In this document: piece by piece, positions 20,057 through 36,356 of the stretch | Numbering within the stretch: position 1 is the stretch's first letter | Layout: every line of letters starts with the position of its first letter | Assembly (NCBI GenBank): GCA_003194485.1 | Contig: PQXD01000015.1 | Span: 15,413 to 58,427 of the forward strand | Origin: Deltaproteobacteria bacterium | Lineage (GTDB): Bacteria > Desulfobacterota > Dissulfuribacteria > Dissulfuribacterales > UBA3076 | Direction: 5' to 3' | DNA: 43,015 nucleotides | The notes under the pieces: generated by a model | Told to the model about the DNA's origin: nothing | Seen by the model: the letters and a program-made list of their open reading frames with translations, nothing else | Databases searched by the model: none | Program-made: the position numbers and the translations under genes

Positions 20057-20080
20057 AATTACTAATTATAATTGTTTTAA

Positions 20081-20116
20081 ACGTTCAGAGGTTCAGAGTT
20101 CACCGTTCAGGGTTAT
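20081..20116. repeat. GTTCAGAGGTTCAGAG-type repeat
   Basis: A run of GTTCAG/GTTCAC units (ACGTTCAGAGGTTCAGAG, then CACCGTTCAGGGTTA) just upstream of the fusion gene. It is the reverse-complement style of the TGAACCC tandem at 13653-13700. Confidence 0.5.
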
Positions 20117-20156
20117 CTTTCTTCAGTTTCTGATCCGGAAATGAGGAATTTTTCGC

Positions 20157-20302
20157 AAGAGCCGCTTGCAAAACTCAAGATTTTGTTCGAGGGCAAGGCG
20201 CGAGGAGGTGAAAAAGCGCAGTGTACTGGGTGTACATGAGCATTTTTCACCGACGAGCAACGCAGCCCTCGGGCAAAAGATGGGTTTTGTAAGTGGCTCT
20301 TT
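20157..20302. repeat. Long palindromic repeat (about 70-base arms)
   Basis: The left arm (20157-20227) and right arm (20232-20302) are imperfect reverse complements along their whole length. Matching blocks include AAGAGCC, CAAAAC, TTTTG, CGAGGGC, GGTGAAAAA and TGTAC, and the tip lies around GTACTGGGTGTAC. It begins at the stop codon of the FMN subunit gene. A partial copy of the left arm (CGCTTGCAAAACTCAGGATT) lies near 38693-38715. It looks like a non-autonomous mobile or REP-like element and could act as a transcript stabiliser between the two glutamate synthase genes. Confidence 0.8.
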
Positions 20303-21956
20303 AGCAGGCATAATCAATCTCTAGCCTCTCCGCTATAGCCTTGTCACCTACGCTGAGGCCGTCCGACATGCCGATTGGCAACTGCGTACTCCGGCCCATG
20401 GGGGCAAATATCTTTTTCAGCTCTGTCTCAGCGCTCTTGAAGACCTCTACCACACGTTCAGCCACTTTATCAGGGTCCAGCCGGCGGTAAAGCCTGGGGT
20501 TTTGAGTGGTAATGCCCCGTGGGCACTTGCCGGTGTTGCAAAGGTTACACCGGTTGTACTCGTCGCCCAGGCACCCGGCTGCGGCCTGCATGATATATTT
20601 CCCCATATCTACGGCGCTGGCCCCGAGCATGATCATGGCAGCGGCATTTGCTGCCAGGTTCCCTGTCTTGCCCATTCCACCGGCAGCGATGAGCGGAAGC
20701 TCGTTCTGTTTCCCCTGTCTGACCAGATCCAGATAGCAGTCTCTGATATTGGAAGCAATGGGATGCCCCATTTTGTCCATAGAAATATTATAGGCCGCTC
20801 CGGTCCCGCCGTCTTCACCATCAATGCACAAGGCAGCGGCATAAGGATTTCTGGCCAGGTTGTTAAGGACCGCCCGGGCGGTCCTGGTGCCGGAGATCTT
20901 GGGATAGACCGGCACACGGAAACCCCAGGCCATGGACATGGACTGGATCATCTTGGCCACTGCCTCCTCGATGGAGTATTTAGTCTGGTGTGTGGGGGGG
21001 GAGGCGAGATCGACGTACATAGGGACACCGCGGATTCCGGCAATAAGCTTCAGTACCTTGTAGGACATCAGAAGGCCGCCGTCCCCCGGCTTTGCACCCT
21101 GGCCGTACTTGATCTCGATGGCACACGGATCCTCAACCATATCCGGCAGGGCGTGAATGATCTCATCCCATCCGAAGTAGCCGGATGCGATCTGAGGTAT
21201 GAAATACTTCAGGAAGCGGGAGCGCAGGAGCCTGGGCGGCATGCCGCCTTCCCCGGAACACATAACCACCGGCATCCCCTCCACCTCATTGAGATAGGTG
21301 ATGCCCATTGCCAGGCCCTCCCACATGGGCGGGGAAACGGCGCCTATGGACATGCTCCCGATACGGATGGGGAATATCTCCCTCACAGGAGGGATGAAGG
21401 TATCGTCTCCTACTGTCAATAAGTTATCCTTCACCTTGAGGGGCAGCTTCTCAGGGGGCAGGATACGCCCTAAAAGGGTCCGGATATGGAACTCGTGCCT
21501 GCCTGCATCCAGGGCGGGGTCTGTCAGCATCGAGATGCGGGTGAACTTGAGCTTGTCCAGAGTGCTTGGGCTGGGATCATTGCGCCTCCCGCCGCGCTTA
21601 TACGGCGTTCCTCCAAGGTTCTTGTGAAACAGAAATTTGTGCCGCGGATTGTAATACGGGGCGATTGCCGCATTCGGACATACCAGGCTGCACATTCCGC
21701 AACCGGTGCAGTAACGTTCAATGTCATTAACCTGGCGGATCCCGTGGGTTATCTTTCGTATAGTGCTGGGCATCAGGGTCCCGGATTCAGAGTACACAAG
21801 GCGCCGGGCAAAGACAGCCGGCTCAATAGCCTGCTGCGGGCACACAGCAGTACAACGGCCGCAGCGGGTACAACGGTCTTCCCTCCATTGTATAATGTAA
21901 GGGAAGTCTTGCAGCGTCAATTGTCCATTGTGGTCTAGCCGTGAAGCTGGTTCCAT
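20301..21956 (-). CDS. Glutamate synthase FMN subunit with N-terminal ferredoxin domain
   Basis: The central synthase domain of GltB as a stand-alone 551-residue protein, preceded by a two-cluster ferredoxin domain (CTRCGRCTAVCPQQAIEP at about residues 32-49 and CTGCGMCSLVCPNAAI near 84-99). The synthase part carries the FMN-barrel motifs (IKYGQGAKPGDGG, IDGEDGGTGAAYN) and a Cys group (CNLCNTGKCPRGITTQ) corresponding to the [3Fe-4S] region of GltB. It makes glutamate from 2-oxoglutarate and ammonia channelled from the amidotransferase subunit. The start overlaps the end of the upstream amidotransferase gene by 22 bases. This archaeal/anaerobe-style split arrangement suggests ferredoxin can serve as donor. 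Confidence 0.94.
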   Translation of the reverse strand: MEPASRLDHNGQLTLQDFPYIIQWREDRCTRCGRCTAVCPQQAIEPAVFARRLVYSESGTLMPSTIRKITHGIRQVNDIERYCTGCGMCSLVCPNAAIAPYYNPRHKFLFHKNLGGTPYKRGGRRNDPSPSTLDKLKFTRISMLTDPALDAGRHEFHIRTLLGRILPPEKLPLKVKDNLLTVGDDTFIPPVREIFPIRIGSMSIGAVSPPMWEGLAMGITYLNEVEGMPVVMCSGEGGMPPRLLRSRFLKYFIPQIASGYFGWDEIIHALPDMVEDPCAIEIKYGQGAKPGDGGLLMSYKVLKLIAGIRGVPMYVDLASPPTHQTKYSIEEAVAKMIQSMSMAWGFRVPVYPKISGTRTARAVLNNLARNPYAAALCIDGEDGGTGAAYNISMDKMGHPIASNIRDCYLDLVRQGKQNELPLIAAGGMGKTGNLAANAAAMIMLGASAVDMGKYIMQAAAGCLGDEYNRCNLCNTGKCPRGITTQNPRLYRRLDPDKVAERVVEVFKSAETELKKIFAPMGRSTQLPIGMSDGLSVGDKAIAERLEIDYAC

Positions 21957-23050
21957 ACCTGGACCTCCCGGGCATTGGGTGTCACTATTGCCATGTCATA
22001 TTTTGAAGGAAAAATGTCAGCAGAGCGGTCACGCCGGGAGATCGCCCTGTCCAGCCCGCACATCTCGCTCATAAGTGCGTATTTTCCCTTGGCCCCGCCA
22101 ACAACCCCTGGCCTGAGCTTTTTGGAGTCCTGTACCATGAAGATTGTTCCATCAGGTATAAAACCGATGACCATGTTGGGACCGTCTATGCACAGAGGCC
22201 GAAGACTCTTTTTGAGCAGGCTGACGGCCTCGGCGTCCGCTCGCTCGCGGATCTCCTCGTCCTTCAAGGGGGTAATGACGTCCTTATAATATGTCAGGGG
22301 ATATTTTAGTTGCCGGTGGCTGAAGTGCAGGATATGAGTGAATACCTCGCTGTCGCTGTTGTAGCCCATGTAACCGGGGAATCCGCGGCTGGTCAGGTAC
22401 TCCCGGATAGGAACAAAGGCCGTGTTCTCGCCGTTAGTCATGGTGCAATAACCCTGAATAAAGAAGGGGTGGCAGGCATAGAGATAGATGGCGTAGTTTG
22501 TATTTTGCCGCCCCTGGGCCAGGATCACCTTGGCCTGCAGGGACGGATCATCCAGGCCGAAGAACTCCCCTAACTGCAACGGATCTCCCACTTCCTTCAA
22601 TGCGAGACAATCAGGATAGAAAGAAAATATAAATAGGGAGTGATCTTTTTCTCCCATACGCCTCAGGTCCAGCCTGGTCTCAAGCAGGAGTTGTTCCCAC
22701 TCAACCTGGGCCTTCGGCTCATATGGCGAAGGATACTGATAGGCCTTTGCGAAGTAGTGGTCACGGGGTCCTGTCTCCATGCCCGCGACATGCTTGATCT
22801 TCGGCTCCCAACTGTATTTGACCCGAAAGCCTGCTTTCTGCATGTAATCATCCAGCATCTCAAGGCCTTTATGGGTACAGCAGCCGGAAAGGATGGGATA
22901 GCTCTTGAGATCCTCAAATGGCCCGCCCAGATCCTTCATGACCAGGCCAAGACCGGAGCCGTCATGTCCTTCTTTCATGGTCTCCAGCGCCAGGATATTT
23001 TCCATTGGGGAAAAATATGAACTGGAGGTGATGGCGCTGAGTCGGCACAT
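21935..23050 (-). CDS. Glutamate synthase glutaminase (class II amidotransferase) subunit
   Basis: Ntn-type glutaminase that releases ammonia from glutamine for the FMN subunit. The start at 23050 (reading MCRLSAITSS) puts the catalytic cysteine at position 2, as required in this class, and is preceded by AAAGGAGGAAGC; the longer frame from 23077 would bury it. KEGHDGSGLGLVMKDLGG is the GltB-like segment following the nucleophile. The 371-residue length suits a free-standing GltB N-terminal domain. It is the first gene of the minus-strand set and lies divergent from carB across a 370-base gap, so the transcript probably begins there. Confidence 0.9.
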   Translation of the reverse strand: MCRLSAITSSSYFSPMENILALETMKEGHDGSGLGLVMKDLGGPFEDLKSYPILSGCCTHKGLEMLDDYMQKAGFRVKYSWEPKIKHVAGMETGPRDHYFAKAYQYPSPYEPKAQVEWEQLLLETRLDLRRMGEKDHSLFIFSFYPDCLALKEVGDPLQLGEFFGLDDPSLQAKVILAQGRQNTNYAIYLYACHPFFIQGYCTMTNGENTAFVPIREYLTSRGFPGYMGYNSDSEVFTHILHFSHRQLKYPLTYYKDVITPLKDEEIRERADAEAVSLLKKSLRPLCIDGPNMVIGFIPDGTIFMVQDSKKLRPGVVGGAKGKYALMSEMCGLDRAISRRDRSADIFPSKYDMAIVTPNAREVQVWNQLHG

Positions 23051-23420
23051 GCTTCCTCCTTTTGATTGTGATGACACTTCAGGCCGAAAGGGTTAAAATC
23101 TGTAATAGAGACTTAATGAATTCTGCCGGGCAATCGTTTTCCCAGCATATTATATTCTTACTTTAGTTCGTGGACATTTTCAATATAGGGGGGTTATTAT
23201 CAGTTTGGAAATTTTGTAAGCGTTCACAGGGCACAGCATCTGCTTTGTTGTCGGACACTTGAAGTACAGGAAGTACGTCTGCGTATCCTCCGCCTCGCAT
23301 CTGCAGCACCCTGTAAACGCTTACAGCTCGGTAGGTTGCGATAAAACTGGCGTTGTAACCCCGTGAACGGTTACGAAGTTTTGATGGTTGAATAATGATT
23401 TCTAATGAAAGGATAATTTA
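23051..23420. promoter_or_regulatory. Divergent intergenic region with an inverted repeat
   Basis: This gap separates the minus-strand glutamate synthase run from carB and must hold both promoters, but I see no clear -35/-10 pair or sigma-54 box. TGTAAGCGTTCACAGGG at 23215-23231 and CCCTGTAAACGCTTACA at 23309-23325 are inverted copies with one mismatch. GCATCTGC occurs as a direct repeat inside both arms (23236-23243 and 23297-23304). A GTGAACGGTTAC repeat unit lies at about 23363-23374. The palindrome could be a mobile repeat or a structured leader of carB. Confidence 0.45.
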
Positions 23421-26400
23421 ATGCCAAGACGTGATGACATCAAGAAAGTCATGATTATAAGCTCCGGGCCAATTATTATAGGCCAGGCTTGCGAGTTCGA
23501 CTATTCCGGCACCCAGGCCTGCAAGGCCCTTCGCAAACTCGGTTATGAGATAGTGCTGGTCAATTCCAACCCTGCAACCATTATGACAGACCCCGGAATG
23601 GCAGACGTGACCTATATCGAGCCTTTGAATCTCCAGGCCATGGAGGAAATCATAGAAGTGGAAAGGCCGGATGCCCTTCTTCCAAACCTGGGCGGCCAGA
23701 CCGGCCTGAACCTTTCTTCAGAGCTGGCCCGAACGGGCGTGCTGGATAAATACGGTGTCAAGATAATCGGCGTTGAGGTCGATGCCATCAAGCGCGGCGA
23801 GGACCGGATCGCATTCAAGGAGACCATGGACAGCCTCGGCATAGAGATGCCAAGGAGTAAACCGGCCTTCAGTGTAGAGGAGGCCGAGGAAATTGCCGCT
23901 GAACTCGACTACCCTGTGGTCATCAGGCCTGCCTATACCATGGGAGGAACGGGCGGCGGCCTCGTATATAACGTGGAAGAACTGCGAACCATTGCCAGCC
24001 GCGGTATCTCGGCGAGCATGGTGGGCCAGGTGCTGGTGGAGGAGTCTGTCCTGGGATGGGAGGAACTGGAACTGGAAGTCGTGCGCGACGCCAAGAACCA
24101 GATGATCACTGTCTGTTTTATCGAGAATGTGGACGCCATGGGCGTGCACACGGGCGATTCCTATTGTACGGCCCCCATGCTCACTATCGACCCGGAACTG
24201 CAAAAACAGCTTCAAAAATGGTCGTACGACATTGTCGAGGCCATAAAGGTCATAGGCGGCACCAACATCCAGTTTGCCCATGACCCCAAGACCGGCCGCG
24301 TGGTGGTGATCGAAATCAACCCCAGGACCTCCCGTTCCTCCGCCCTGGCTTCCAAGGCGACCGGTTTCCCCATCGCGCTTATTTCCGCCATGCTGGCAGG
24401 GGGCTTGACGCTGGACGAAATTCCTTACTGGCGAGAGGGGACCCTGGACAGGTACACACCCTGGGGTGACTATGTGGTAGTGAAGTTTGCCCGGTGGGCC
24501 TTTGAGAAGTTTGAGGGCTCTGAAGATAAGCTGGGCACACAGATGCGTGCCGTGGGCGAGGTCATGAGCATCGGCAAGAATTACAAGGAGGCCTTTCAGA
24601 AATCGATTCGCTCCCTGGAAAACGGCCGCTACGGACTCGGCTTTGCCAAGGACTTTAATGATAAATCGCTGGATGAATTGATGGAACTTCTGGTCGAGCC
24701 ATCGAGCGAGCGGCAGTTTATCATGTACGAGGCACTGCGAAAGGGAGCCGGCGTGGAAGCGCTCTATGAAAAGACCTTTATCAAGCCATGGTTTATTGAG
24801 CAGATGAAGGAATTGGTGGAGCTTGAGGAAAAGATCCTGCAATACAAGGGGACTGCAGTGCCCGACGATCTGCTGGAACAGGCCAAGAAAGACGGGTTTT
24901 CAGACCGGTACCTGTCTGAGATCCTTGAAATCCCTGAAAAAGATATCCGGCATCGGCGCACCTCTCTGGGCTTGACAGAGGCGTGGGAGCCTGTGCCGGT
25001 AAGCGGCGTCGAGGATGCAGCCTATTATTTCTCCACCTACAATGCCACTGACAAGGTGAAAACGAGCAACAGGCGCAAGATAATGGTATTGGGTGGCGGG
25101 CCTAACCGTATAGGGCAGGGGATCGAGTTTGACTACTGCTGTGTTCACGCTGCTTTTGCATTGCGTGACGGGGGATTTGAGTCGATTATGGTAAACTGCA
25201 ACCCAGAGACCGTCTCAACCGATTACGACACTTCAGACAAGCTCTACTTCGAGCCGCTTACGGTCGAAGACGTATTGAGCATCTACGAAAAGGAAAAACC
25301 CGAAGCGGTGATCGTCCAGTTTGGCGGGCAGACCCCTTTGAATATTGCCAATGAGCTGGCTGAGGCCGGTGTCAAAATCATCGGCACTTCACCTGAGACC
25401 ATAGACCTGGCCGAGGACCGGGACCGTTTCCGGAAGATGATGAGAAAGCTCGGTATTCCTGAGCCCGAATCGGGTATGGCCAGTACACTGGAAGAGGCTA
25501 TTGGCGTGGCTGAAAGAATCGGCTACCCCCTCATGGTCCGGCCCTCCTATGTGCTTGGGGGGCGGGGCATGGAGGTTGTCCATGACGAGGGGATGCTAAA
25601 GCATTATATGGCCGCAGCCGTGGATGTATCGCCGGAACGGCCGATCTTGATCGACAAGTTCCTTGAAAACGCCATTGAGGCTGAAGCAGATGCCATTTCC
25701 GACGGCACTGATGCCTTTGTGCCTGCTGTGATGGAACATATCGAGCTGGCAGGGGTCCACTCGGGTGACTCGGCCTGTGTGATACCGCCCATCAGTATTC
25801 CTGCCAGACACATTGATACCATCTGCGAATATACAAAAAGGATCGCAGTGGAACTCGGTGTGGTCGGCCTGATGAATATCCAGTACGCTATTGCCGGCGA
25901 TATGGTATACATACTTGAGGCCAATCCGCGCGCATCCAGGACCGTGCCTCTTGTTTCAAAGGTCTGCAACATTTCCATGGTCCGCCTGGCCACGCAGCTC
26001 ATGCTGGGCAAAAAGCTTGCAGACCTGAATATCAGGCCCGTATCGATCCCTCACTTTGGGGTCAAGGAGGCGGTTTTTCCCTTTAACATGTTCCCGGAGG
26101 TCGACCCGCTCCTCGGTCCTGAGATGCGATCCACAGGGGAGGTGCTGGGGCTGGCGGACTCTTTCGGCCTGGCCTTTTACAAGGCCCAGGAGGCGACTCA
26201 ACAAAGCCTTCCTTCTGAGGGGACCGTGCTTATCACAGTGTCAGAGAGAGACAAGCATGCTGCCCTGGAGGCGGCGAAGCAGTTTGACAGGCTTGGCTTT
26301 AAGATCAAGGCGACTGAAGGGACTCGCAGATTCCTGGCAGACCACGGAATTCAATCCGAGCTGATCCGCAAGATGCACGAAGGGCGCCCAAATATTGTTG

Positions 26401-26621
26401 ACGGGATAAAAAACAATGAGATTCAACTGATCATCAACACACCCAGCGGCAGACTGAGCAAGTACGACGATTCCTACATCCGAAAGGCGGCAATCAAATA
26501 TAAGGTACCGTATATAACCACTACGGCTGCGGCCGTTGCCGCCGCCAGGGGAATCGCAGCCTGCCGGAGGGGGCATGGTCGGGTGAAGTCGCTTCAGAGA
26601 TACCATGGGGATATCGGGTAG
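23421..26621 (+). CDS. carB: Carbamoyl-phosphate synthase large subunit CarB
   Basis: Makes carbamoyl phosphate from bicarbonate, ATP and glutamine-derived ammonia for pyrimidine and arginine synthesis. The 1066-residue product is full length (E. coli 1073) and has both ATP-grasp halves: N-terminal [19 protein letters not shown] with GGTGGGLVYN near residue 175, and a second half from MVLGGGPNRIGQGIEFDYC with GGRGMEVV. A C-terminal MGS-like allosteric domain follows from about residue 935 (VLITVSERDKHAALEAAKQF). It has a good AAAGGATAATTTA leader before the ATG. Its carA partner is not adjacent. Its N-terminus differs throughout from the truncated carB at 13011-13622, so the window contains two carB lineages. 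Confidence 0.96.
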   Translation: MPRRDDIKKVMIISSGPIIIGQACEFDYSGTQACKALRKLGYEIVLVNSNPATIMTDPGMADVTYIEPLNLQAMEEIIEVERPDALLPNLGGQTGLNLSSELARTGVLDKYGVKIIGVEVDAIKRGEDRIAFKETMDSLGIEMPRSKPAFSVEEAEEIAAELDYPVVIRPAYTMGGTGGGLVYNVEELRTIASRGISASMVGQVLVEESVLGWEELELEVVRDAKNQMITVCFIENVDAMGVHTGDSYCTAPMLTIDPELQKQLQKWSYDIVEAIKVIGGTNIQFAHDPKTGRVVVIEINPRTSRSSALASKATGFPIALISAMLAGGLTLDEIPYWREGTLDRYTPWGDYVVVKFARWAFEKFEGSEDKLGTQMRAVGEVMSIGKNYKEAFQKSIRSLENGRYGLGFAKDFNDKSLDELMELLVEPSSERQFIMYEALRKGAGVEALYEKTFIKPWFIEQMKELVELEEKILQYKGTAVPDDLLEQAKKDGFSDRYLSEILEIPEKDIRHRRTSLGLTEAWEPVPVSGVEDAAYYFSTYNATDKVKTSNRRKIMVLGGGPNRIGQGIEFDYCCVHAAFALRDGGFESIMVNCNPETVSTDYDTSDKLYFEPLTVEDVLSIYEKEKPEAVIVQFGGQTPLNIANELAEAGVKIIGTSPETIDLAEDRDRFRKMMRKLGIPEPESGMASTLEEAIGVAERIGYPLMVRPSYVLGGRGMEVVHDEGMLKHYMAAAVDVSPERPILIDKFLENAIEAEADAISDGTDAFVPAVMEHIELAGVHSGDSACVIPPISIPARHIDTICEYTKRIAVELGVVGLMNIQYAIAGDMVYILEANPRASRTVPLVSKVCNISMVRLATQLMLGKKLADLNIRPVSIPHFGVKEAVFPFNMFPEVDPLLGPEMRSTGEVLGLADSFGLAFYKAQEATQQSLPSEGTVLITVSERDKHAALEAAKQFDRLGFKIKATEGTRRFLADHGIQSELIRKMHEGRPNIVDGIKNNEIQLIINTPSGRLSKYDDSYIRKAAIKYKVPYITTTAAAVAAARGIAACRRGHGRVKSLQRYHGDIG

Positions 26622-26695: not shown

Positions 26696-27409
26696 ATGGA
26701 AGAAAACAAACCTGAAACCTATGACAAATATATAAAAGCGCTCACGGATATCAGCCGTGCCATTACCTCAGCCCAGTATCTTGAAGATATTCTGAAGCTG
26801 ATCGTAATGGTAACGGCAAAGGTAACAGGTGTTGAGATCTGTTCGTTGTGGCTCATAGACGAAAGTGTCGATCCGAAAAAGATCCGGCTGAAAGCGACGC
26901 AGGCCATAGCCCCGGATTATCTGAAGGACAGATCTTTGACCATGGACGAAGGAGTGGTCGGTTTTGTGGCTACCCACAACCAACCACTTATTATCAGAGA
27001 CGTGTCAACAGATCCCAGGTTCAAGGAAAAGGAGATGGCCAAAAAGCTTGGCCTGGTATCCATGGTCAGCGTGCCGCTTCAGGTAAAGGATGAAAAGGTA
27101 ATCGGGGTGCTCAACTGCTTTACAGCAGAACCCTATGAATTTTCAGAAACAGAGGTAAACCTCATTACAGCAGTCGCCAATCAGGCGGCGGTCGCAATTC
27201 TCAACACAGAGCTCATGGTGAAAACCAAGGTGATCAGGGAGGAACTGGAGACCCGAAAGCTGGTGGAGCGGGCTAAGGAAATCCTTATGCGCAGACGCAA
27301 AATGGACGGGGATGAGGCTTTTCGCTGGATTCAAAAACGGAGCATGGACTCCCGCAAATCCATGCGGCATGTGGCAGAGGCAGTTCTGCTTTCGGAGGAA
27401 CTGGAGTAG
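26696..27409 (+). CDS. GAF-ANTAR domain antiterminator/regulator
   Basis: A 237-residue protein with an N-terminal GAF sensor domain (about residues 12-165) and a C-terminal ANTAR RNA-binding domain (about 178-235; KLVERAKEILMRRRKMDGDE followed by AFRWIQKRSM). ANTAR proteins bind twin hairpins in leader RNA and prevent terminator formation, and are often used to control nitrogen metabolism genes (for example NasR, AmiR). The neighbours are carB upstream and, 214 bases downstream, a glutamate-synthase-like gene whose leader holds an intrinsic-terminator hairpin. That leader is the obvious candidate target. The GAF ligand cannot be told from sequence. Confidence 0.9.
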   Translation: MEENKPETYDKYIKALTDISRAITSAQYLEDILKLIVMVTAKVTGVEICSLWLIDESVDPKKIRLKATQAIAPDYLKDRSLTMDEGVVGFVATHNQPLIIRDVSTDPRFKEKEMAKKLGLVSMVSVPLQVKDEKVIGVLNCFTAEPYEFSETEVNLITAVANQAAVAILNTELMVKTKVIREELETRKLVERAKEILMRRRKMDGDEAFRWIQKRSMDSRKSMRHVAEAVLLSEELE

Positions 27410-27456
27410 AAAGGTCTTGACAAGATGGATTAGTAGCCTTAAATATGTCCCGGTTG

Positions 27457-27470
27457 TTACAGATTTGTAA
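27457..27470 (+). promoter_or_regulatory. Small leader hairpin upstream of terminator
   Basis: TTACAGATTTGTAA forms a short perfect hairpin that can be drawn with a six-base loop AGATTT. The loop starts with A but lacks the G at position 4 expected of the canonical ANTAR target, so this is only a candidate half-site. It lies between the ANTAR gene and the terminator hairpin at 27523-27558. Confidence 0.3.
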
Positions 27471-27522
27471 GGTTTCGTACAAAGGCGTAGGAAGCCGTTT
27501 TAAAGCACATGGCTGACAAAGG

Positions 27523-27558
27523 CGTCCGCCTCCCTTATGGGTGGCGGACGTTTTTTTT
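27523..27558 (+). terminator. Intrinsic terminator-like hairpin in the leader of the second glutamate-synthase-like gene
   Basis: CGTCCGCC at 27523-27530 pairs with GGCGGACG at 27543-27550, with an inner CCC/GGG extension around a TTAT loop, followed directly by eight T residues (27551-27558). It may simply end the carB-ANTAR transcript. Its position 66 bases before the start at 27624, right after an ANTAR gene, makes it a candidate for regulated termination of the downstream gene. Confidence 0.85.
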
Positions 27559-27623
27559 GCAGCGGAAACTACAGTTCTGCTTAAACTCTACAGTCAATTT
27601 CTAAATTAGGAGGATTTTCTGTT

Positions 27624-29189
27624 ATGTCATTTAGCAAACCCAATTACAGTGCTGCCACGCTGACAACAACACGTATGACACCGGCTCCCATATCAGGGAT
27701 CTGCGTGACCTGTGTTGACGGTTGCGAGGGGCCTTGCGAGATAGGCAGGTCCGCCCTTAAAGGAAGGGAAGTCATCTACCCGACACCCTTTGGTACGATC
27801 ACGGCTGGTTCTGAAAAGGATTACCCTGTAGATTTCTCCCATTTCAACATTCAGGGGACGGCCGTAGGTGCGGTCGGCATTGAAGCCGATTCGGATAAAG
27901 CCACATTTCCGGCCGTAGATACTACTACGGCTGTCGGCGCTGATGGCAGTATCAAGCTGAACTTCCCTGTCTTTACCGGCGCGGTGGGGTCAACTGATAT
28001 TGCCCGCATTAATTGGGAAGACGTGGCCATAGGTGCGGCCATATCCGGGGTAATAGTCGTAGCTGGCGAAAATATCTGCGGTATGGATTCGAAGGCGGAA
28101 TTCCAAAATGGAAAGATTTCCAGGTCGCCGGAGATGGAACGCCGCATCAATGCCTTCAATCAGTGGTATGACGGTACCGGAGGCATCATTATTCAGGCGA
28201 ATGTGGAAGATACCAGATTGGGCGTGCCTGAATATGTAATTGAAAAATTGGGAATTGAGATTTTTGAGCTTAAATGGGGCCAGGGCGCCAAGGATATCGG
28301 GGGCGAGGTCAAGCTGCATTCGATCGAGAGGGCCACGGAACTCAAAAACAGGGGTTATATCGTGTTGCCGGATCCGACCAATCCGGCTGTGCAGGAAGCC
28401 TTCAGGGCAGGTGGCATCACAGAGTTTGAACGTCACTCACGCCTCGGCATGGTGGAAGAAGAGGCCTTTCACAATTCGGTTAATCACCTGCGTTCAGTAG
28501 GCGCAAAATATGTGACTCTCAAGACAGGTGCATATCGTCCTGCCGACCTGGCCAGGGCCATAAAATATTCCTCGGATGCAAAGATCGATCTCCTTACCAT
28601 AGACGGGGCAGGAGGTGGAACCGGCATGAGCCCCTGGCGCATGATGAATGAATGGGGCATCCCGACAGTACAACTGGAATGCCTGGCCTATCAGATGTGC
28701 CAACGGTTGGCTTCCAAAGGGGCCTATATCCCGCCGATCGCCATTGCCGGCGGCCTGTCCCTGGAAGACCATATCTTTAAGGCCATTGCCCTTGGGGCAC
28801 CCTATGTAAAGGCCATCTGCCTTGGCCGGGCCATTTTCACTGCCGCCATGGTAGGCAAGACTCATGGGAAACTGATGGCTGAAAAAATGGAACTGGAAGG
28901 GGAGGATATCGAAGACGGCTATATGCGTCTCTTTGCAGTTGGCGCCCAATTAAAGGAGCGCTTCGGGAAAGATTTTGGCAAGCTCCCTGCCGGGGCCATC
29001 GGCATGTATTCTTACATCGACAGGTTGAAACAGGGCCTTCAGCAGCTTATGGCAGGGGCAAGGAAATTCGCCGTCCAGTATATTGACCGTAACGATCTGA
29101 TGGCCCTGACCAAAGAATCTGCGGAAGTTTCCGGGATTTCCCATGTCATGGACGCAGATGCAGAAGAGGTAGACAAGATTCTGGGATAG
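27624..29189 (+). CDS. FMN-binding glutamate synthase-like protein (second copy, ferredoxin-type)
   Basis: A 521-residue protein of the GltS FMN-domain family. An N-terminal Cys-rich segment (GICVTCVDGCEGPCEIGRSA, about residues 26-45) is followed by the barrel with KWGQGAKDIGGEVKL, TIDGAGGGTGMSP and a late IAIAGGLSLEDHIFKAIALG. It lacks the GltB [3Fe-4S] Cys pattern of the minus-strand FMN subunit and is only distantly related to it. A perfect TTAGGAGGA precedes the ATG. A small ferredoxin gene follows. Family members of this form are often annotated as glutamate synthase, but substrate and role are uncertain; the terminator in its leader suggests control by the upstream ANTAR protein. Confidence 0.85.
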   Translation: MSFSKPNYSAATLTTTRMTPAPISGICVTCVDGCEGPCEIGRSALKGREVIYPTPFGTITAGSEKDYPVDFSHFNIQGTAVGAVGIEADSDKATFPAVDTTTAVGADGSIKLNFPVFTGAVGSTDIARINWEDVAIGAAISGVIVVAGENICGMDSKAEFQNGKISRSPEMERRINAFNQWYDGTGGIIIQANVEDTRLGVPEYVIEKLGIEIFELKWGQGAKDIGGEVKLHSIERATELKNRGYIVLPDPTNPAVQEAFRAGGITEFERHSRLGMVEEEAFHNSVNHLRSVGAKYVTLKTGAYRPADLARAIKYSSDAKIDLLTIDGAGGGTGMSPWRMMNEWGIPTVQLECLAYQMCQRLASKGAYIPPIAIAGGLSLEDHIFKAIALGAPYVKAICLGRAIFTAAMVGKTHGKLMAEKMELEGEDIEDGYMRLFAVGAQLKERFGKDFGKLPAGAIGMYSYIDRLKQGLQQLMAGARKFAVQYIDRNDLMALTKESAEVSGISHVMDADAEEVDKILG

Positions 29190-29253
29190 TATCCATTCGT
29201 AATTTACACGATTGATATGCATGATCATACTTGTTAAAGGGGGTCAATAAATC

Positions 29254-29463
29254 ATGATTAATTCGATATGTAAGCATAACTGCGCATCCTGCTTTGCGTT
29301 GCCGGTATGCGCGCTAGGTGCAATAATTGATCAGCAAGGCTCTATTTATGTAGATACTGACAAGTGCATCGGCTGTGGTTGTTGCCGGACAGTGTGCATC
29401 ACATTTTCTCGTGATGAAGCACTGAAAGACAAGACCGTAGAGTGGCTCAAGGGCGAGGCATAA
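29254..29463 (+). CDS. Small Cys-rich ferredoxin-like protein
   Basis: A 69-residue protein with two cysteine groups: CKHNCASCFALPVC at residues 6-19 and CIGCGCCRTVC at residues 38-48, the second being a classical [4Fe-4S] ferredoxin motif with an extra Cys. It follows the FMN protein by 64 bases and has AAAGGGGG upstream, so it probably serves that enzyme as an electron carrier or small subunit. The first group departs from the usual CxxCxxCxxxC spacing, so the number of clusters is uncertain. Confidence 0.82.
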   Translation: MINSICKHNCASCFALPVCALGAIIDQQGSIYVDTDKCIGCGCCRTVCITFSRDEALKDKTVEWLKGEA

Positions 29464-29548
29464 TGTATAAGTGTACAGAAAAGCAGGCATGAGGGGCATA
29501 AGCGCCAAGTTATTTTCACCGGATGGGCTTACTAAAAAATGTGTAAAT

Positions 29549-29627
29549 ATTCGGTATTGGATATTTGTTTTTCATTCGATGTTGGATGTTGGACGTTCGA
29601 TGTTCGACGTTCATCTTTCAAAACAAC
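29549..29627. repeat. Second copy of the GAACATCGAACGTCC repeat
   Basis: From TCGGTATTGGATATTTG through GATGTTGGACGTTCGATG to TCATCTTTCAAAACAA, the segment matches the reverse complement of 17488-17567 with only a few differences. It holds only one side of the palindrome, so it would not form the long hairpin on its own. It lies in the 264-base gap between the small ferredoxin and the AOR gene; the rest of that gap holds no recognised feature. Confidence 0.8.
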
Positions 29628-29727
29628 TTAGCGCTTATAAGGAGGCAAACAGAGTCCCTGCGGTCAACCATGCCTGCTTGTGGGCGCTTGGCGGTCTCAT
29701 ACAATGGCAAAGCCGGGAGAATAGGAA

Positions 29728-31548
29728 ATGGATGGATGTATCGGTCGTTGTCTGAGGGTGAATCTGACCAAGGGAAAACATAGTATAGAGGAGATCGATC
29801 CGAGACTCCTTAAGAAATTTTTGGGCGGACGCGGTCTCGGAGTAAAGGTCTTTACAGATGAGGTCGATCCTCGGACAGACCCTCTTTCTCCGGACAACAA
29901 GCTCATTTTTTCCTCGGGTCCACTGGTCGGAACAGGGGCCATAACAGGGGCATCCTGCAATGTCATAACCAGGTCTTCATTAACCGGGACCCTGGCCTGC
30001 GCCAAGATCCGCGGGCATTTCGGCGCTGAGCTCAAGTTCGCCGGATTCGACATGGTCATTATAGAGGGCAAGGCAGAAACTCCGGTCATTCTCTCAATTA
30101 TTGACGACAAAGTCAGAATACTTCCTGCTCTGGAATACTGGGGACGTTCTACTGCCGAGACTGAAGACCTGTTTAAAAAGAACCTTGGTGATCAATGGAT
30201 CGCGCGGGAGACATTTCTGATATCGATCGGCCCTGCAGGCGAACGGTTACTCCCATTGGCCAATGTTGTTAACGACCGTTTTCTCTCTGCAGGAGGAGCC
30301 GGTACAGGCGCGGTTATGGGATCCAAGAATCTCAAGGCCGTAGCCGTGAAAGGCCGGCATTCCCTGTACGTGGCAGACGGCAGTCGGTTTGTGAAGGTAG
30401 TCAATACCCTGATCAACAAGCTGAATAGCGCACCTTTTGTCTCTCAATCCATGTCCCAGTGGGGAACCGCTTTTCTGGTGGGCTTGAGTTATCAAAAGGG
30501 GATGCTGCCCCAAAACAATTTCCGCTGGGCGGCCCTTTCGTTGAAAAACATAGGTACAGAGGCGTTAAACAGCGCTTTTATCCTGAAAAGTCGCGGGTGT
30601 TTTGCGTGTCCTGTTGCATGTATTAAGAAATCAGTTGTCAAGCACCCTATGTATCGAGGAAAGGGTATGGTGCCCAGCTATCTGGCAATCGGTGCCCTCG
30701 GGGTAAACTGCGGGATCAGCGATCTCCCGGCAATCGGTATGGCGAGCATGCTGTGTGCTGAAATGGGCCTCGATCCGGTCGCAACAGGAGGAGCCCTTGC
30801 CACTGCCATGGAATTGGTGGAAAAGAAGGTGCTTTCACCGGAGGAACTCAAGATTGATCTCGGGTTTGGTAATGCCGAGACGCTGATACAGGCGCTTCGC
30901 TTGATCGCCACGAAAAAAGGGTATGCCAGACGCCTGGGACAGGGCGGGAAGGCCCTGGCCGAATCATCCGGGAGGCCGGATCTTTTTATGGGCGTAAAGG
31001 GCCTTTCTCTGGCACCGTTTGATCCTCGCGCCATTCAGGGAATGGGACTCCATTTTGCCACGAGCAACTATGGACCTCATTACCTATACGCCTATACCTA
31101 TATTGATGAGCTGCTCAACGTACACGAGAACTCAGATCCGTGGGAAATTGAGGGAAAGCCGGCATTGGTCAAACTGCATCAGGACACGACTGCCGTCATG
31201 GATTCCCTGGGCCTGTGCAGCAAGCTTTTGAAGGGACTGAAATTAAATAATTATGTCCCACTTGTAAACAGTTGTCTTGGAACAAGTTACAAGGCAGAGG
31301 ATCTGCTCCTTATCGGGGAGAGGATATGGAACCTGGAAAGGCTGTTTAATCTGAGCGCAGGATTCAACAGCTCACACGATACCCTCCCTGACAGGTTCAC
31401 CAAAGAACCCATTTCCGACGGGCCTGCTGAAGGACAGATCAGCCGGATAAGCGAAATGATTCCGGAATATTATCATCTTAGAGGGTGGAACGAGAAAGGC
31501 GAGCCCCCGCCGGAGACCCTGAAGGCATTGGAACTGGAGGATGAGTAA
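29728..31548 (+). CDS. Aldehyde:ferredoxin oxidoreductase family tungsten enzyme (BamB-like position)
   Basis: A 606-residue member of the AOR family, whose enzymes use a tungsten (or molybdenum) bis-pyranopterin cofactor and one [4Fe-4S] cluster. Visible features are the N-terminal MDGCIGRCLRVNL and GGRGLGVKVF, pterin-site GPLVGTGAITGA, and the cluster motif GCFACPVAC (about C291, C294, C298) with a fourth Cys probably in SLGLCSKL (about 496). Length is that of classical AOR (about 605). It heads an eight-gene run with Hdr/Mvh and Nuo-like genes, as BamB does in class II benzoyl-CoA reductase. No other aromatic-degradation gene is in the window, so the substrate may be an aldehyde, a carboxylic acid or an aryl-CoA. 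Confidence 0.9.
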   Translation: MDGCIGRCLRVNLTKGKHSIEEIDPRLLKKFLGGRGLGVKVFTDEVDPRTDPLSPDNKLIFSSGPLVGTGAITGASCNVITRSSLTGTLACAKIRGHFGAELKFAGFDMVIIEGKAETPVILSIIDDKVRILPALEYWGRSTAETEDLFKKNLGDQWIARETFLISIGPAGERLLPLANVVNDRFLSAGGAGTGAVMGSKNLKAVAVKGRHSLYVADGSRFVKVVNTLINKLNSAPFVSQSMSQWGTAFLVGLSYQKGMLPQNNFRWAALSLKNIGTEALNSAFILKSRGCFACPVACIKKSVVKHPMYRGKGMVPSYLAIGALGVNCGISDLPAIGMASMLCAEMGLDPVATGGALATAMELVEKKVLSPEELKIDLGFGNAETLIQALRLIATKKGYARRLGQGGKALAESSGRPDLFMGVKGLSLAPFDPRAIQGMGLHFATSNYGPHYLYAYTYIDELLNVHENSDPWEIEGKPALVKLHQDTTAVMDSLGLCSKLLKGLKLNNYVPLVNSCLGTSYKAEDLLLIGERIWNLERLFNLSAGFNSSHDTLPDRFTKEPISDGPAEGQISRISEMIPEYYHLRGWNEKGEPPPETLKALELEDE

Positions 31549-31922
31549 TGCCGAGGATAAAAATTGATCATACCAAGTGCACCGGCTGCAGGCATTGTGA
31601 GACCGCGTGCTCCCTGAATCATGTAGCAAATACCGTGAATCCAAGGCGCGCCCGCATACGGGTGATGAAAGAAGGGGATCAGTATTTTCCTGTGATAGCA
31701 GGTCCTTTTGTAGATGCTGCCTGTACGTCAAAACAGACCATAGTAATAGGTGACCAGACCTATGACATGTGCGCTTTGTGCAGGGCATCGTGTCCGCAGA
31801 AACCCTATTTCATAGAGGCCGAGACCGGTATTCCCTTGAAATGTGATTTTTGCGGCATACCGCCGAACCCGTCGTGTGTGCGCTGGTGCAACACCGGTGC
31901 ACTGGAACTGGTGGAAGATTAG
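31548..31922 (+). CDS. Ferredoxin-type electron-transfer subunit paired with AOR (BamC-like position)
   Basis: A 124-residue protein with clustered cysteines: CTGCRHCETAC near residues 11-21, CALCRASCPQ near 75-84 and CDFCGIPPNPSC to WC near 99-114, enough for three or four [4Fe-4S] clusters of the HycB/BamC type. The ATG overlaps the last base of the AOR stop, which implies coupled translation and a stoichiometric complex. It should carry electrons between the tungsten subunit and the Hdr-type subunits encoded next. Confidence 0.9.
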   Translation: MPRIKIDHTKCTGCRHCETACSLNHVANTVNPRRARIRVMKEGDQYFPVIAGPFVDAACTSKQTIVIGDQTYDMCALCRASCPQKPYFIEAETGIPLKCDFCGIPPNPSCVRWCNTGALELVED

Positions 31923-31936
31923 GAGAGAGTATTCCA

Positions 31937-34900
31937 ATGAAAATTGATGCCTCCAGGGAGGATCTGGTCGGCGCTGCAATGGTTGTCGGAGGCGGAATCG
32001 CCGGAATCCAGGCTGCCATGGACCTGGCTGATGCCGGGTTTTATGTCTACCTGATCGAAAGGTCATCAGCCATAGGCGGTATCATGGCGGGCCTGGACAA
32101 GACCTTTCCAACCAACGACTGTGCCATCTGAATTCTGGCGCCCAAGCTGGTAGAGGCCGGTCGGTCTCCTAATATAGAAATCATTACAAACGCCGATATT
32201 CAGGAAATCTCGGGCACCGCCGGGAATTTCAGTGTCAAGGTGTTGCGACGCCCCCGTTATGTGGATGAAGCCAAATGTACCGGTTGCGGGGTCTGCTCGC
32301 AATACTGCCCGGTTACCCTGCCCGATCCCCATAACCAGTACTTATCCCCCAAAAAGGCTATTGATATCCTTTATACGCAAGCCATACCTTCCAAATATTT
32401 CGTTAATCCTGATTATTGTCTGTTCCTGAACAGACAGGAGTGTAAGCAATGTACCCGTGCCTGTCAGACAGGGGCCATTGATTTTGACCAGAAGCCGGAG
32501 GTCGCCGTATACCATGTCGGTGCGGTTATCCTGTCTGCCGGCTTCAAGCAGTCCGACCCGGCCCGCATAAAGGCCTACCGATGCAAGGACTCTCCCAATA
32601 TCGTTACAGGTCTGGAATTTGAGCGCATATCAAGCGCTTCCGGTCCCTATATGGGGAAAATCCTGAGACCTTCGGATTCGGAAAAACCCGGGAGAATCGC
32701 CTTTATTCAATGTGCAGGTTCCCGTGGCAGTGCATCAGGCAACAGTTATTGCTCGTCCGTGTGTTGCAAATATGCTGTTAAAGACGCCATTGTGGCCCTG
32801 GAGCATGAGCCTGATCTGGACATCACGATATTTTTCATGGATATGCGGATGCACGGCAAGGGACTGGAGAGTTTCTATGAACGTGCAAAGGAATCGGGAA
32901 TACATTTTATCCGGTCCAGGGTCTCCGAGGTAAGACGTGATCCACAAACAGAAGACCTGATCCTGAAGTATGTCACTGAGGACGGCTCCTTGCACCAGGA
33001 CATATTTAATCTGGTTGTGCTCCCCATGGGTCTGGAGGCCCCTGAAGGCAATTTTACCCTGGCAAAGGCCGCAGCCGTAGAACTTAACCACCATGGTTTT
33101 TGCCGGACAGGGCTGTTTGATCCGCTTTTTACGTCAAGAGAAGGGATCTATGTTGCAGGTGGATTCCGGGGACCGATGCCCCTTCCTGACAGTGTCATGC
33201 AGGCCAGCGGGACCGCTGCGTGCGTGACCGAGCTCCTTGCCCCGGCCCGCGGTACACTCATATCTGAAAAGACCTTTATTGAAGAACGTCCTGTGAAACA
33301 GGAGCCTTTGAGGATCGGCGTGTTTGTGTGCAATTGCGGCAAGAATATAGCAGGTGTAGTGGACGTGGAGGATGTAAAAAAGTATGCTGCCACTCTCCCC
33401 GATGTGGTTGTCAGCACTGACAACCTCTATTCATGTTCTGAAGATACACAGGTCTTGATCAAGGAAACCGTTGTCAATGAAAAGCTCAACCGGGTTGTTG
33501 TGGCTGCATGCACTCCCAGGACCCATGAGCCGCTGTTTCAGGAAACCATCAGAGAGGCTGGACTGAACAGGTGCCTCGTGGAAATGGTAAATATCCGCGA
33601 CCAGTGTTCATGGGTGCATGCCCATGAAAAAGAGGAGGCCACACAAAAGTCAAAAGACCTGATTCGCATGGCTGTTGCAAAGGCCAGGTTGATCCGGTCT
33701 TTGGATGAACCGGTCATAGACGTTATTCCAAGGGGCCTGGTTATCGGCGGCGGACTTGCCGGTATGACCGCCGCGCTGTCACTGGCCGGGCAGGGGCTTG
33801 AATGTTACCTGGTTGAAAAAACAGCCAAGCTGGGGGGCAATCTCCATAATATCCATTACACCCTGGAGGGAGAAAATCCGCAGGACTATCTTAAAACGAT
33901 TGTTGATCGGGTCAGAAACCACGGGCTTATTCATGTCTTTATGGAAGCTGAGATAGAGAGTGTCAATGGATTTGTGGGCAATTTTCAGACAGTGGTAAAA
34001 TCCGGGCGGGGTCCTGAAAAAAAGACCGTAGAGCTTCAACACGGGGCCATCATTCTGGCCACCGGTGCTATGGCCTTCAGGCCGGATGAATATCTCTACG
34101 GGAAAAGCGGGCACGTAATATTGCAGCATGAATTGGAAGAAAGACTGGCCTCCGGCAGTTTTGTTCCAACCGGGGATGATACGATTGTAATGATTCAATG
34201 TGTCGGCTCCAGGGATGACAGCCATATGTATTGCAGCAGTATCTGCTGCAGCATGGCAATCAAGAACGCGCTGAAGATAAAGGAAATCAATCCTTCTGCC
34301 AATGTGTATGTCCTTTACCGGGATATGGGGACATATGGATTTCATGAAGCATATTACACACGGGCCAGGGAGCAGGGGGTTGTATTCATCCGGTATGACA
34401 GGGACAAAAAGCCTGAAGTTGCCGAAGTTGATGGAAGGTTGCGCATAACCATCAAGGACCTGCTCATTGACAATGATGTCGTAATTCATGCCGATCTGCT
34501 GGCTTTAAGCACGGCGATCGTTCCACAGCGGGACGATACCTTGGAGCGTGTACTGGCAATGCCGCGCTCAGCAGACGGATTTTTATTAGAGTCACACGTC
34601 CAGTTGAAGCCTGTGGATTCATACATTGACGGGATCTTCATATGCGGCATGGCGCATTTTCCTAAGCCGATCGACGAATCTATTGCCCAGGCCAAGGCAG
34701 CGGCGTCCAAAGCGGGTATACTGCTGGCAAGGGGCCATGTCAGGGTTGAGCCGATAGTATCGTCCTGTGATCCGGATAAGTGTATCGGCTGCGGTATCTG
34801 TGAGTATTTCTGCCCTTACAATGCGATCAAGATGACAAAGAAGGGCAAGCTCAAAAAAGCCGAGGTCATCGTTGCCGCTTGCAAGGGATGCGGGGTCTGT

Positions 34901-34990
34901 GCTTCCTATTGTCCGGCCAGGGCCATCAGCATGGGGAGGTTTACAGATGAGCAGATTCTTGCCCAAATCGAGGCGTTTGGGAGGAATTGA
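31937..34990 (+). CDS. Double-length HdrA-like flavoprotein, selenoprotein (Sec65 at in-frame TGA 32129-32131)
   Basis: Reading through one TGA gives a 1017-residue protein. The N-terminal unit (about 1-440) has an FAD site [16 protein letters not shown], then [10 protein letters not shown][13 protein letters not shown] where HdrA proteins normally have Cys, then ferredoxin motifs [12 protein letters not shown] and CKQCTRAC. The C-terminal unit (about 455-1017) repeats an HdrA plan: [12 protein letters not shown], a second FAD site [16 protein letters not shown] near 602, and two terminal clusters [12 protein letters not shown] and [12 protein letters not shown]. It should be the flavin hub that splits or merges electrons between NAD(H), ferredoxin and the AOR branch. 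AGGAGAG precedes the ATG at 31937. Sec is known at this position in some methanogen HdrA proteins. Both parts share one frame, so no frameshift is needed. Confidence 0.88.
32129..32168 (+). promoter_or_regulatory. Bacterial SECIS element for HdrA Sec65
   Basis: The TGA at 32129-32131 is followed by GAGGCC (32153-32158), loop GGTC (32159-32162) and GGTCTC (32163-32168), a six-pair stem with one G-U. The loop starts 27 bases after the TGA, inside the usual bacterial range of about 16-37, and has G in its first positions and the GGUC sequence typical of SelB-binding loops. Confidence 0.75.
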
Positions 34991-35001
34991 GGGACGATAT
35001 T

Positions 35002-35763
35002 ATGGCGAGTAAACCAAGAATTCTCGGGTTTTTGTGCCACTGGTGTTGCTATGCTGCGGCAGATGCGGCAGGCGTGGCCCGGTTCCAATATCCGCCTCAT
35101 ATCAGGGTAATCAGAGTGATGTGCACCGGCAGGATAGATCCTCTGTTTATCCTGGAGGGATTTCTCCATGGGGCGGACGGAATATTCGTCGGCGGGTGAC
35201 ACCTCGGAGAGTGTCATTACCGGTCCGGTAATTATGAAGCCATAAACAAAATCGCCTTTATCAAGATGATTCTGGAAAACCTCGGAATCGAGACGGACAG
35301 ATGCGCCCTGGAATGGGTCTCTGCTGCCGAGGCCCCTCGTTTCGTACAGGTGATAACGGAATTTGATGCACGTATCCGGGATCTTGGCCCCATAGGACAC
35401 AGCGAGGGTCTGGATCGCCAGACCTTGATGCACAAGATAAGGGCAGCCAAAATCGCTCTGGAAGGAAGAAAGGTGCGGATGGCCCTTGCAAGGGAGTCAA
35501 AGAAGATGAAAAAGCACGGGACGTATGGCGAGTTCCCTTCGAGAGAAAAACTGTCAACCACTATACAGGATGAAACAACCCTGTATGAGACGCTGTTGTA
35601 TTTACAGGAAAGGGAACGTCCTGCTTCGGAACTGGCGGAACTGCTGGGCGTTTCTGTAGATCAAGCCGCGTCCTGCGTAGAGACCCTGAGAAAGAAAAAG
35701 ATGTGGCAACCGTTCGCGGGTTCAGAGTTCAGGGGTTCAAGGTTAGAGAGCGATGAAAATTGA
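35002..35763 (+). CDS. MvhD-like delta subunit, selenoprotein (Sec66 at in-frame TGA 35197-35199)
   Basis: Reading through the TGA gives 253 residues. Residues 1-140 are an MvhD/VhuD domain: [24 protein letters not shown] and GIFVGG-Sec-HLGECHY, where the family has Cys or Sec. These residues bind the [2Fe-2S] cluster linking electron donors to HdrA. The remaining ~110 residues are charged and helical, ending in a helix-turn-helix-like stretch ([19 protein letters not shown]) not usual in stand-alone MvhD. GAGGGA stands 7 bases before the ATG at 35002; a TTG at 34987 is less likely. The last ~15 codons come from an extragenic repeat, so the natural C-terminus may once have been elsewhere. Confidence 0.88.
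35197..35232 (+). promoter_or_regulatory. Bacterial SECIS element for MvhD Sec66
   Basis: After the TGA at 35197-35199, ATTACC (35216-35221), loop GGTCC (35222-35226) and GGTAAT (35227-35232) form a perfect six-pair stem whose loop begins with GGUC. The loop lies 22 bases after the TGA. A second small stem, TGACAC (35197-35202, including the TGA) with GTGTCA (35211-35216), stacks below it. The loop sequence matches that of the HdrA element. Confidence 0.82.
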
Positions 35764-35868
35764 ACGGTTTGAAGATATTGAAGCATGGCAGTTGGCCCGA
35801 GACCTAACTCGCAAGGTCAACGGAAGAAGGGTAACCCTGAACCTGTGAACCTGTGAACGCTCACAAGA
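35706..35868 (+). repeat. Inverted GTTCA-type repeats enclosing a four-helix-bundle (IVS-type) protein remnant
   Basis: The left repeat (about 35708-35742, units of GTTCGCGGGTTCAGAGTTC) and right repeat (about 35831-35865, units of CCTGAACCTGTGAACG) are mutually complementary. Between them an ATG at 35753 opens a 31-codon frame to 35848 reading [20 protein letters not shown], the typical N-terminus of the S23/23S rRNA intervening-sequence four-helix-bundle proteins (normally about 115-125 residues). Everything after about residue 22 is lost. It overlaps the end of the MvhD gene by 11 bases and interrupts the gap before hdrC. I read it as a decayed, formerly mobile small element. Confidence 0.7.
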
Positions 35869-35886
35869 TGTGGAATGGAGATCTCC

Positions 35887-36354: not shown

Positions 36355-36356
36355 CC

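Follow-up and report, generated by a model that had tools for sequence, protein, structure and literature searches.

Gene content of the locus

The window, meaning the whole analysed stretch of 43,015 nucleotides from a Deltaproteobacteria bacterium, carries a GAF-ANTAR gene at 26696-27409 (+), followed by a glutamate-synthase-like gene at 27624-29189 (+). The former encodes a protein of 237 aa with a GAF domain at residues 29-168 (Pfam, 1e-21) and an ANTAR domain at residues 181-231 (PF03861, 4.6e-21), both above their cut-offs with 78.3 against 22.4 and 74.8 against 27.3 bits, respectively. The latter encodes a protein of 521 aa with a Glu_synthase domain (Pfam PF01645, 54.6 bits, 1.3e-14). 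The 214 nt between them (27410-27623) hold a promoter-like element at 27417-27445 (+), with TTGACA at 27417-27422, a spacer of 16-17 nt and TTAAAT/TAAATA at 27439-27445, two hairpins termed P1 (27471-27496, +) and P2 (27511-27530, +), an intrinsic terminator at 27518-27558 (+), and the ribosome binding site AGGAGG at 27608-27613 (+), which was read from the sequence and lies 10 nt before the ATG at 27624. The original prediction had placed an ANTAR gene next to a 214-base leader with a very strong terminator with eight T residues and a perfect ribosome binding site, in front of a glutamate-synthase-like gene. All of these were recovered; the small hairpin that it had put forward as a possible ANTAR target was not.

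The glutamate-synthase-like gene is followed by genes at 29254-38679 (+), annotated with Pfam and NCBIfam, a run that is possibly co-transcribed with it. A 4Fe-4S protein (29254-29463, +) comes first, and after it an AFOR-type oxidoreductase, an Fe-S protein, HdrA-like, HdrA/VhuD-tail-like, HdrC-like, NuoE-like, and NuoF-like proteins. An AFOR gene follows the glutamate-synthase-like gene in the related loci L098 and L111 too, in the latter by reading of the ORF start. The whole run of 27624-38679, with its AFOR, HdrA, HdrC, NuoE, and NuoF-like products, looks like an electron-bifurcating complex. Upstream of the ANTAR gene lies a full-length carB (23421-26621). Apart from it, the stretch 11581-13622 (-) holds a short carB-like ORF of 203 aa, with a preATP-grasp domain and the start of an ATP-grasp domain, which is overlapped by an amidotransferase/phosphoribosyltransferase-like gene.

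The match of the target protein to PF01645 covers only profile positions 185-302 of 369. Cysteines occur near its N terminus, and none of 177635 sequences of solved structures matched it. Its own genome holds two other PF01645 matches. One of them is a fuller FMN glutamate synthase subunit encoded at 20301-21956 (-), with 4Fe-4S and Glu_synthase domains and profile positions 41-367 matched; it adjoins a GXGXG/GltD-like fusion (17723-20056, -) and an amidotransferase-like protein (21935-23077, -). The N terminus of the last reads like a class II amidotransferase by eye; the protein had no Pfam, NCBIfam or PDB match, and GATase_2 had no match in the genome. This split GOGAT-like cluster (17723-23077, -) ends 3.6 kb before the ANTAR gene, beyond carB. 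BLASTP related the target to this fuller FMN subunit with an E value of 0.003, which suggests that any kinship of the two is distant, and the glutamate synthase role of the target is putative.

Hairpins and terminator of the leader

When 27410-27640 was searched for hairpins whose loop is an AnnGnn hexaloop and whose stem has 3 or more pairs, exactly two were returned, with the inner hairpins TAC[AAAGGC]GTA at 27478-27489 and GAC[AAAGGC]GTC at 27515-27526. The leader thus holds the two hairpins of at least 3 bp, with hexaloops bearing A1 and G4, that characterize an ANTAR target, a dual-hexaloop motif defined in PMC3369931. Extended, P1 reads GGUUUC-G-UAC[AAAGGC]GUA-G-GAAGCC (hexaloop 27481-27486) and P2 reads GGC-U-GAC[AAAGGC]GUC-C-GCC (hexaloop 27518-27523), with one mismatch each. 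The original prediction had pointed to a single small hairpin, most likely the one at 27457-27470, and had suggested a variant target. The loop of that hairpin is AGATTT, with T in place of G at position 4, and the hairpin is missing in 4 of 6 relatives by eye in the alignment of leaders. P1 and P2 lie 3' of it, and because both of their hexaloops are the canonical AAAGGC and fit the consensus, no variant target is needed.

Folded alone, P1 reached -10.7 kcal/mol (z -4.2, 0 of 200 shuffles as stable), P2 -6.9 kcal/mol (z -1.6, 15 of 200 shuffles equally stable), and the terminator stem at 27518-27555 -28.1 kcal/mol (z -7.1, 0 of 200). The 5' arm of the terminator occupies 27518-27530 and its 3' arm 27543-27555, with eight T at 27551-27558. 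A simple consensus terminator scan of the window did not list it, probably because of a mismatch inside its stem. P2 overlaps the terminator in such a way that its loop and 3' arm are the terminator 5' arm, and the two are therefore mutually exclusive. In the RNA 27449-27535, which ends before the terminator 3' arm, both P1 and P2 were formed, with a total energy on par with shuffles (z -0.43, 61 of 200 as stable). As the 3' end was extended, the pair probability of P1 stayed at 0.89 or above throughout, that of P2 was 0.52-0.55 for transcripts ending at 27536-27544 and 0.00 from 27548, and that of the terminator was 1.00 from 27548 on. This is the geometry of ANTAR antitermination.

The linker between P1 and P2 measures 14 nt between the extended stems and 25 nt between the inner 3-bp stems, and 11-29 nt in relatives by the pattern measure, which allows 8-40 nt. 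This speaks against the assignment, since the linkers of the E. faecalis eut leaders measure 5-12 nt and one of 14 nt cut induction strongly there.

Covariance model and covariation

In total, 280 ANTAR relatives were found, and the analysis was carried out on the best 80 of the 280 loci, of which the nearest are labelled Deltaproteobacteria and Desulfobacteraceae or Desulfobacterales. A search pattern was drawn from a first hairpin scan behind each ANTAR gene and then run on both strands of the 80 loci and the window, so it was shaped by the same loci and was not chosen blindly. It matched 30 of the 80 loci, L096 in two registers, as well as the window. The 30 pattern-matched loci, without the window, made up the covariance model R1 of 57 positions. 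A covariance search for the dual-hexaloop motif, the check proposed with the original prediction, gave R1 a score of 33.2 bits (E 4.1e-7) at 27470-27530; the runner-up in the window had an E value of 0.69, and the split GOGAT-like cluster gave no R1 match within the window. Across the genome of 2.55 Mb, the site was the only match under E 0.05 (E 2.4e-5; 150 of 699 first-look candidates scored). Three further matches in the genome (E 0.09-0.66) were considered as a second target and judged to be chance, the best of them (L113, E 0.09) lying over a long coding frame.

Across the 30 rows, 89.2% of cells were paired and 8 of 13 pairs showed double changes. None of 500 shuffles, which take no account of row kinship, was as high on any of five measures. 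With the 3' partners slid by +1, the number of pairs with double changes was again 8, but the share of paired cells dropped to 36.2% and the covariation score from 0.327 to 0.148. The inner pairs are uninformative on covariation because the pattern fixes them, and all six outer P1 pairs that it leaves free showed double changes. The paired hairpins are thus conserved in related genomes. The 57-position two-hairpin model could seed an RNA family.

Features were also followed over 35 sites, namely the window, the 30 loci and four congeneric genomes. Terminator pairing, folded from the P2 loop to the first T run, was computed to begin inside loop 2 in 33 of the 35; L071 and L116 went unscored because the script ended at an earlier T run. 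This overlap bears on whether an ANTAR protein might bind the dual hairpin and act mainly on translation or RNA stability, an effect on translation having been suggested for some ANTAR targets (PMC3369931, PMC8164766). Such an action is highly improbable here, given a terminator that starts inside loop 2 in nearly every site and a ribosome binding site 77 nt 3' of P2, outside both folds.

Promoter-like element

CTTGACA was invariant in 7 of 7 aligned leaders. In 31 of the 35 sites, a perfect TTGACA precedes the inner P1 stem by 41-97 nt (by 50-69 nt in 28 of these 31), and the remaining four sites matched it at 5 of 6 positions. In 700 shuffled upstream stretches, a perfect TTGACA occurred in 2%. 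A strict consensus promoter scan did not list the element at 27417-27422, probably because of its second hexamer. An RNA start near 27451 is inferred. Between 27558 and 27624, where a promoter would speak against attenuation, the promoter scan listed none, the same scan that also misses the TTGACA.

Linkage of motif, ANTAR gene and target gene

A same-strand glutamate-synthase-like gene lay no more than 2.5 kb downstream in 34 of the best 80 of 280 loci, and the motif was present in all 34, in 26 by pattern, which were themselves rows of the model, and in 8 by the model. In two loci (L036 and L037), the gene is convergent and sits behind another gene without a leader, and no motif matched. Among the 44 loci without the gene in the 2.5 kb, 4 carried the motif: before a glutamate dehydrogenase gene (L110), before FlpD-MetV-MetF and a glutamate-synthase-like gene (L096), before an ORF that starts like a glutamate-synthase-like gene by eye and whose 133 residues were blank in Pfam (L094), and close to a contig end (L088). 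The other 42 loci, i.e., 40 of the 44 together with L036 and L037, gave no R1 match up to E 1 in a search of 50 loci.

The ANTAR domain matched once in the genome (assembly 97.4% complete), in the gene that adjoins the leader. Among the 11 genomes of the family, the motif was found at E 0.1 in 5, and precisely these 5 hold an ANTAR homologue of high identity (86-100%); in the remaining 6 no motif was found, and their best ANTAR-protein matches reached at most 30% identity. The family motif always precedes a gene 87-100% identical to that of the window. In the four congeneric genomes, this gene is 87-88% identical (in G004 cut at residue 454), and the ANTAR gene and the motif lie on different contigs. 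One of the 80 loci, L034, is from such a genome (G007, identical match place), and no glutamate-synthase-like gene was found in the 2.5 kb searched after its ANTAR gene; the ORFs listed as far as 4 kb run on the opposite strand. An ANTAR-less congener (G009, an assembly of about 220 contigs) holds a 79-residue end piece of the gene with 89% identity, and no motif was found in it.

These arrangements can be set against a simpler account, in which the terminator merely ends the ANTAR transcript and a separate promoter, located after the terminator, serves the target gene. Terminators commonly follow genes, and the T tract is 65 nt away from the ATG. In L098 and L111, the corresponding distance in the leader alignment is only about 35-40 nt with the ribosome binding site counted in. 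The conserved TTGACA sits before P1 and not after the terminator, the block from TTGACA to terminator stays with the gene in four congeners whose ANTAR gene is on another contig, and a plain terminator leaves both the two A1/G4 hexaloops and the P1 covariation unexplained. A separate promoter is accordingly given very little credence, and the leader is read on as an attenuator.

At the level of the order, 25 of 35 genomes held an ANTAR domain, the order and class searches having given the same 35 genomes. The five ANTAR genomes of the genus had a strong R1 match, and 19 of the 20 outside the genus had none at E 0.01, so R1 describes the target of this ANTAR clade and not that of all ANTAR proteins. 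The remaining genome (G023) gave a doubtful match (E 0.0076), and its 3 kb stretch (L120) neither matched the pattern nor held a homologue of any gene of the window. Of the 28 genomes behind the chosen ANTAR loci (28 of the 80), 24 had an R1 match at E 0.05; G039, G051, G053, and G063 had none at this threshold, and the G063 locus (L109) scored 21.3 bits when searched among the loci.

Genes behind the motif in relatives

Genes behind the motif could be assigned for 30 of 33 matches in the genomes of the chosen ANTAR loci. The glutamate-synthase-like gene was the most frequent target with 22 of 30 (L149 and L160 being two motifs before one gene). An FlpD gene with MetV and MetF after it stood behind the motif in 6, and glutamate dehydrogenase (gdhA) and glutamine synthetase (glnA, L156) in one each. 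In all four FlpD stretches that are long enough (L096, L175, L178, and L176), a glutamate-synthase-like gene occurs further on, backed by Pfam in L178 and L175. The stretches L175, L178, and L176 hold the motif loci L157, L159, and L156, respectively. In L176, the motif is followed in turn by glnA, FlpD, MetV, and the glutamate-synthase-like gene, with no MetF match, and the stretches L153, L155, L158, and L161 stop before genes beyond could be read. Judged by this gene order, every target that is readable far enough includes glutamate or glutamine synthesis.

The same assignments bear on the PyrR type. Rfam 15 gave no match in the window at gathering thresholds, and the best weak match on the leader, searched up to E 10, was PyrR (RF00515), so that another type of attenuator, with the ANTAR gene a neighbour by chance, might be considered, the more so with carB next door upstream. 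The score of 27 bits is half of the gathering cut-off of 54, a pyrimidine gene stands behind the motif in 0 of the 30 assigned loci, and the motif of the relatives is associated with the ANTAR gene and genes for glutamate or glutamine synthesis. We regard another type of attenuator, such as a PyrR-like element, as extremely improbable and retain the ANTAR assignment.

FlpD-MetV(-MetF) and glutamate-synthase-like genes lie together behind the motif in L178 (660-5703), L175, L176, and L096, an arrangement in which electrons for glutamate synthesis may come from MetVF-like subunits. Tandem dual hairpins before one gene occur in L175 (- strand, 1598 and 1776) and L149/L160, and in L091 more than 100 nt with an insert separate P1 from P2.

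The GAF-ANTAR protein

The AlphaFold2 model of the protein (mean pLDDT 81.9) shows a long helix at 151-201, followed by helices at 205-219 and 223-236. The ANTAR domain matched 1s8n, NasR (4akk), and the response regulator 6wsh, of which we take 1s8n to be Rv1626 and 6wsh to be EutV. The residues of 6wsh fit the EutV numbering of PMC8934654 after a shift by 2, and of 11 RNA-contact residues of EutV listed there, 5 are identical, 3 similar and 3 different in the GAF-ANTAR protein. The identical contacts R142, K143, K149, M172, and R175 are invariant in 31 of 31 aligned proteins. K147 is replaced by R in 29 of them and kept in 2; Y164 is F in the window protein and Y in 19, F in 9 and H in 3 overall; N173 is mostly D. 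The contacts that differ in the window protein are E160G, R168Q, and R177S.

The GAF part resembles the GAF domains of NifA, PtsP and phosphodiesterases, and the NifA GAF domain binds 2-oxoglutarate. Foldseek of the AlphaFold model returned generic GAF matches only, so no ligand could be named. All 31 aligned proteins keep the GAF cysteines C49 and C141, which may serve in redox sensing.

Proposed attenuation and known systems

The leader from about 27451 to 27623 is very probably an ANTAR-responsive transcription attenuator of the glutamate-synthase-like gene. ANTAR control of a terminator-bearing leader, as put forward in the original prediction, is supported by the leader's match to a covariance model from which the window was left out, the presence of the motif in all 34 same-strand-gene loci (best 80 of 280 relatives), the co-occurrence of ANTAR gene, motif and gene in the family, even on different contigs, and the mutually exclusive folds of P2 and terminator. 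From the computed motif, conservation, covariation, linkage and exclusive folds, we infer promoter use, termination, a signal and binding by a dimer. RNA polymerase would start near 27451, and P1 would fold once transcribed, with P2 partly formed until the terminator 3' arm emerges. Without protein, the terminator from 27518 would displace P2 and transcription would end at the T tract. A signal-activated GAF-ANTAR protein would bind the A1/G4 hexaloops of P1 and P2, hold P2 and keep the terminator 5' arm away, so that the polymerase reads into the glutamate-synthase-like gene, and read-through would probably extend to the genes behind it. The GAF domain probably senses nitrogen or reductant status.

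A similar arrangement is described for EutV and the eutP leader of Enterococcus faecalis, where two A1/G4 hexaloop hairpins are likewise present and the second overlaps an intrinsic terminator (PMC3369931, PMC8934654); EutV is also the protein with which 5 of 11 RNA contacts are shared. In contrast, EutV as presented there is a REC-ANTAR protein switched by phosphorylation, whereas the protein described here has a GAF sensor and no receiver domain, and linker and stems are longer here than in the eutP leader. NasR of Klebsiella oxytoca, with its nasF leader, is likewise a one-component sensor-ANTAR fusion with a nitrogen assimilation target, but its sensor is a NIT nitrate sensor instead of GAF (PMC7496416). 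The same paper (2020) counts two characterised members in its one-component subclass, NasR and the PAS/LOV protein PAL, and PMC3369931 (2012) states that GAF- or PAS-domain ANTAR proteins had not been characterised by then.

The kind of switch and even the target function were already known, because PMC3369931 gave the definition of the motif together with a set of predicted ANTAR substrates. In Desulfotomaculum reducens these lie at glutamate synthase genes, in D. acetoxidans in the nitrogen regulon, and in Pelobacter carbinolicus at nitrogenase units, and some precede genes that serve to make glutamate, glutamine and arginine. These predictions share the RNA motif with the leader described here, and that for D. 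reducens shares the glutamate synthase target; both sets are known from sequence alone. They differ in that a GAF-ANTAR clade of deltaproteobacterial genomes is involved here, with one detectable target in the genome of the window. Apart from the predictions for Desulfotomaculum and Pelobacter, GAF-ANTAR control of glutamate synthesis in sulfate reducers was not found among the literature matches listed, subscription journals being mostly outside the search. So far as this search shows, three features are new: a clade whose GAF-ANTAR protein is paired with a single target, a promoter element common to its leaders, and the FlpD-MetV-MetF-glutamate-synthase target.

A wider and rather doubtful proposal is that the GAF-ANTAR one-component antiterminator family of deltaproteobacterial genomes might run a small regulon for reductant-linked ammonium assimilation, comprising the FMN glutamate-synthase-like gene, glnA, gdhA, and the FlpD/MetV/MetF-like plus glutamate-synthase-like operons, with the GAF cysteines hinting that redox, and not nitrogen alone, may be the signal. 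The clear target lies about 60 nt behind the stop codon of the sole GAF-ANTAR gene, and because this one genome combines one such gene with one clear target, the sensor ligand could be sought by a simple in vitro antitermination assay.
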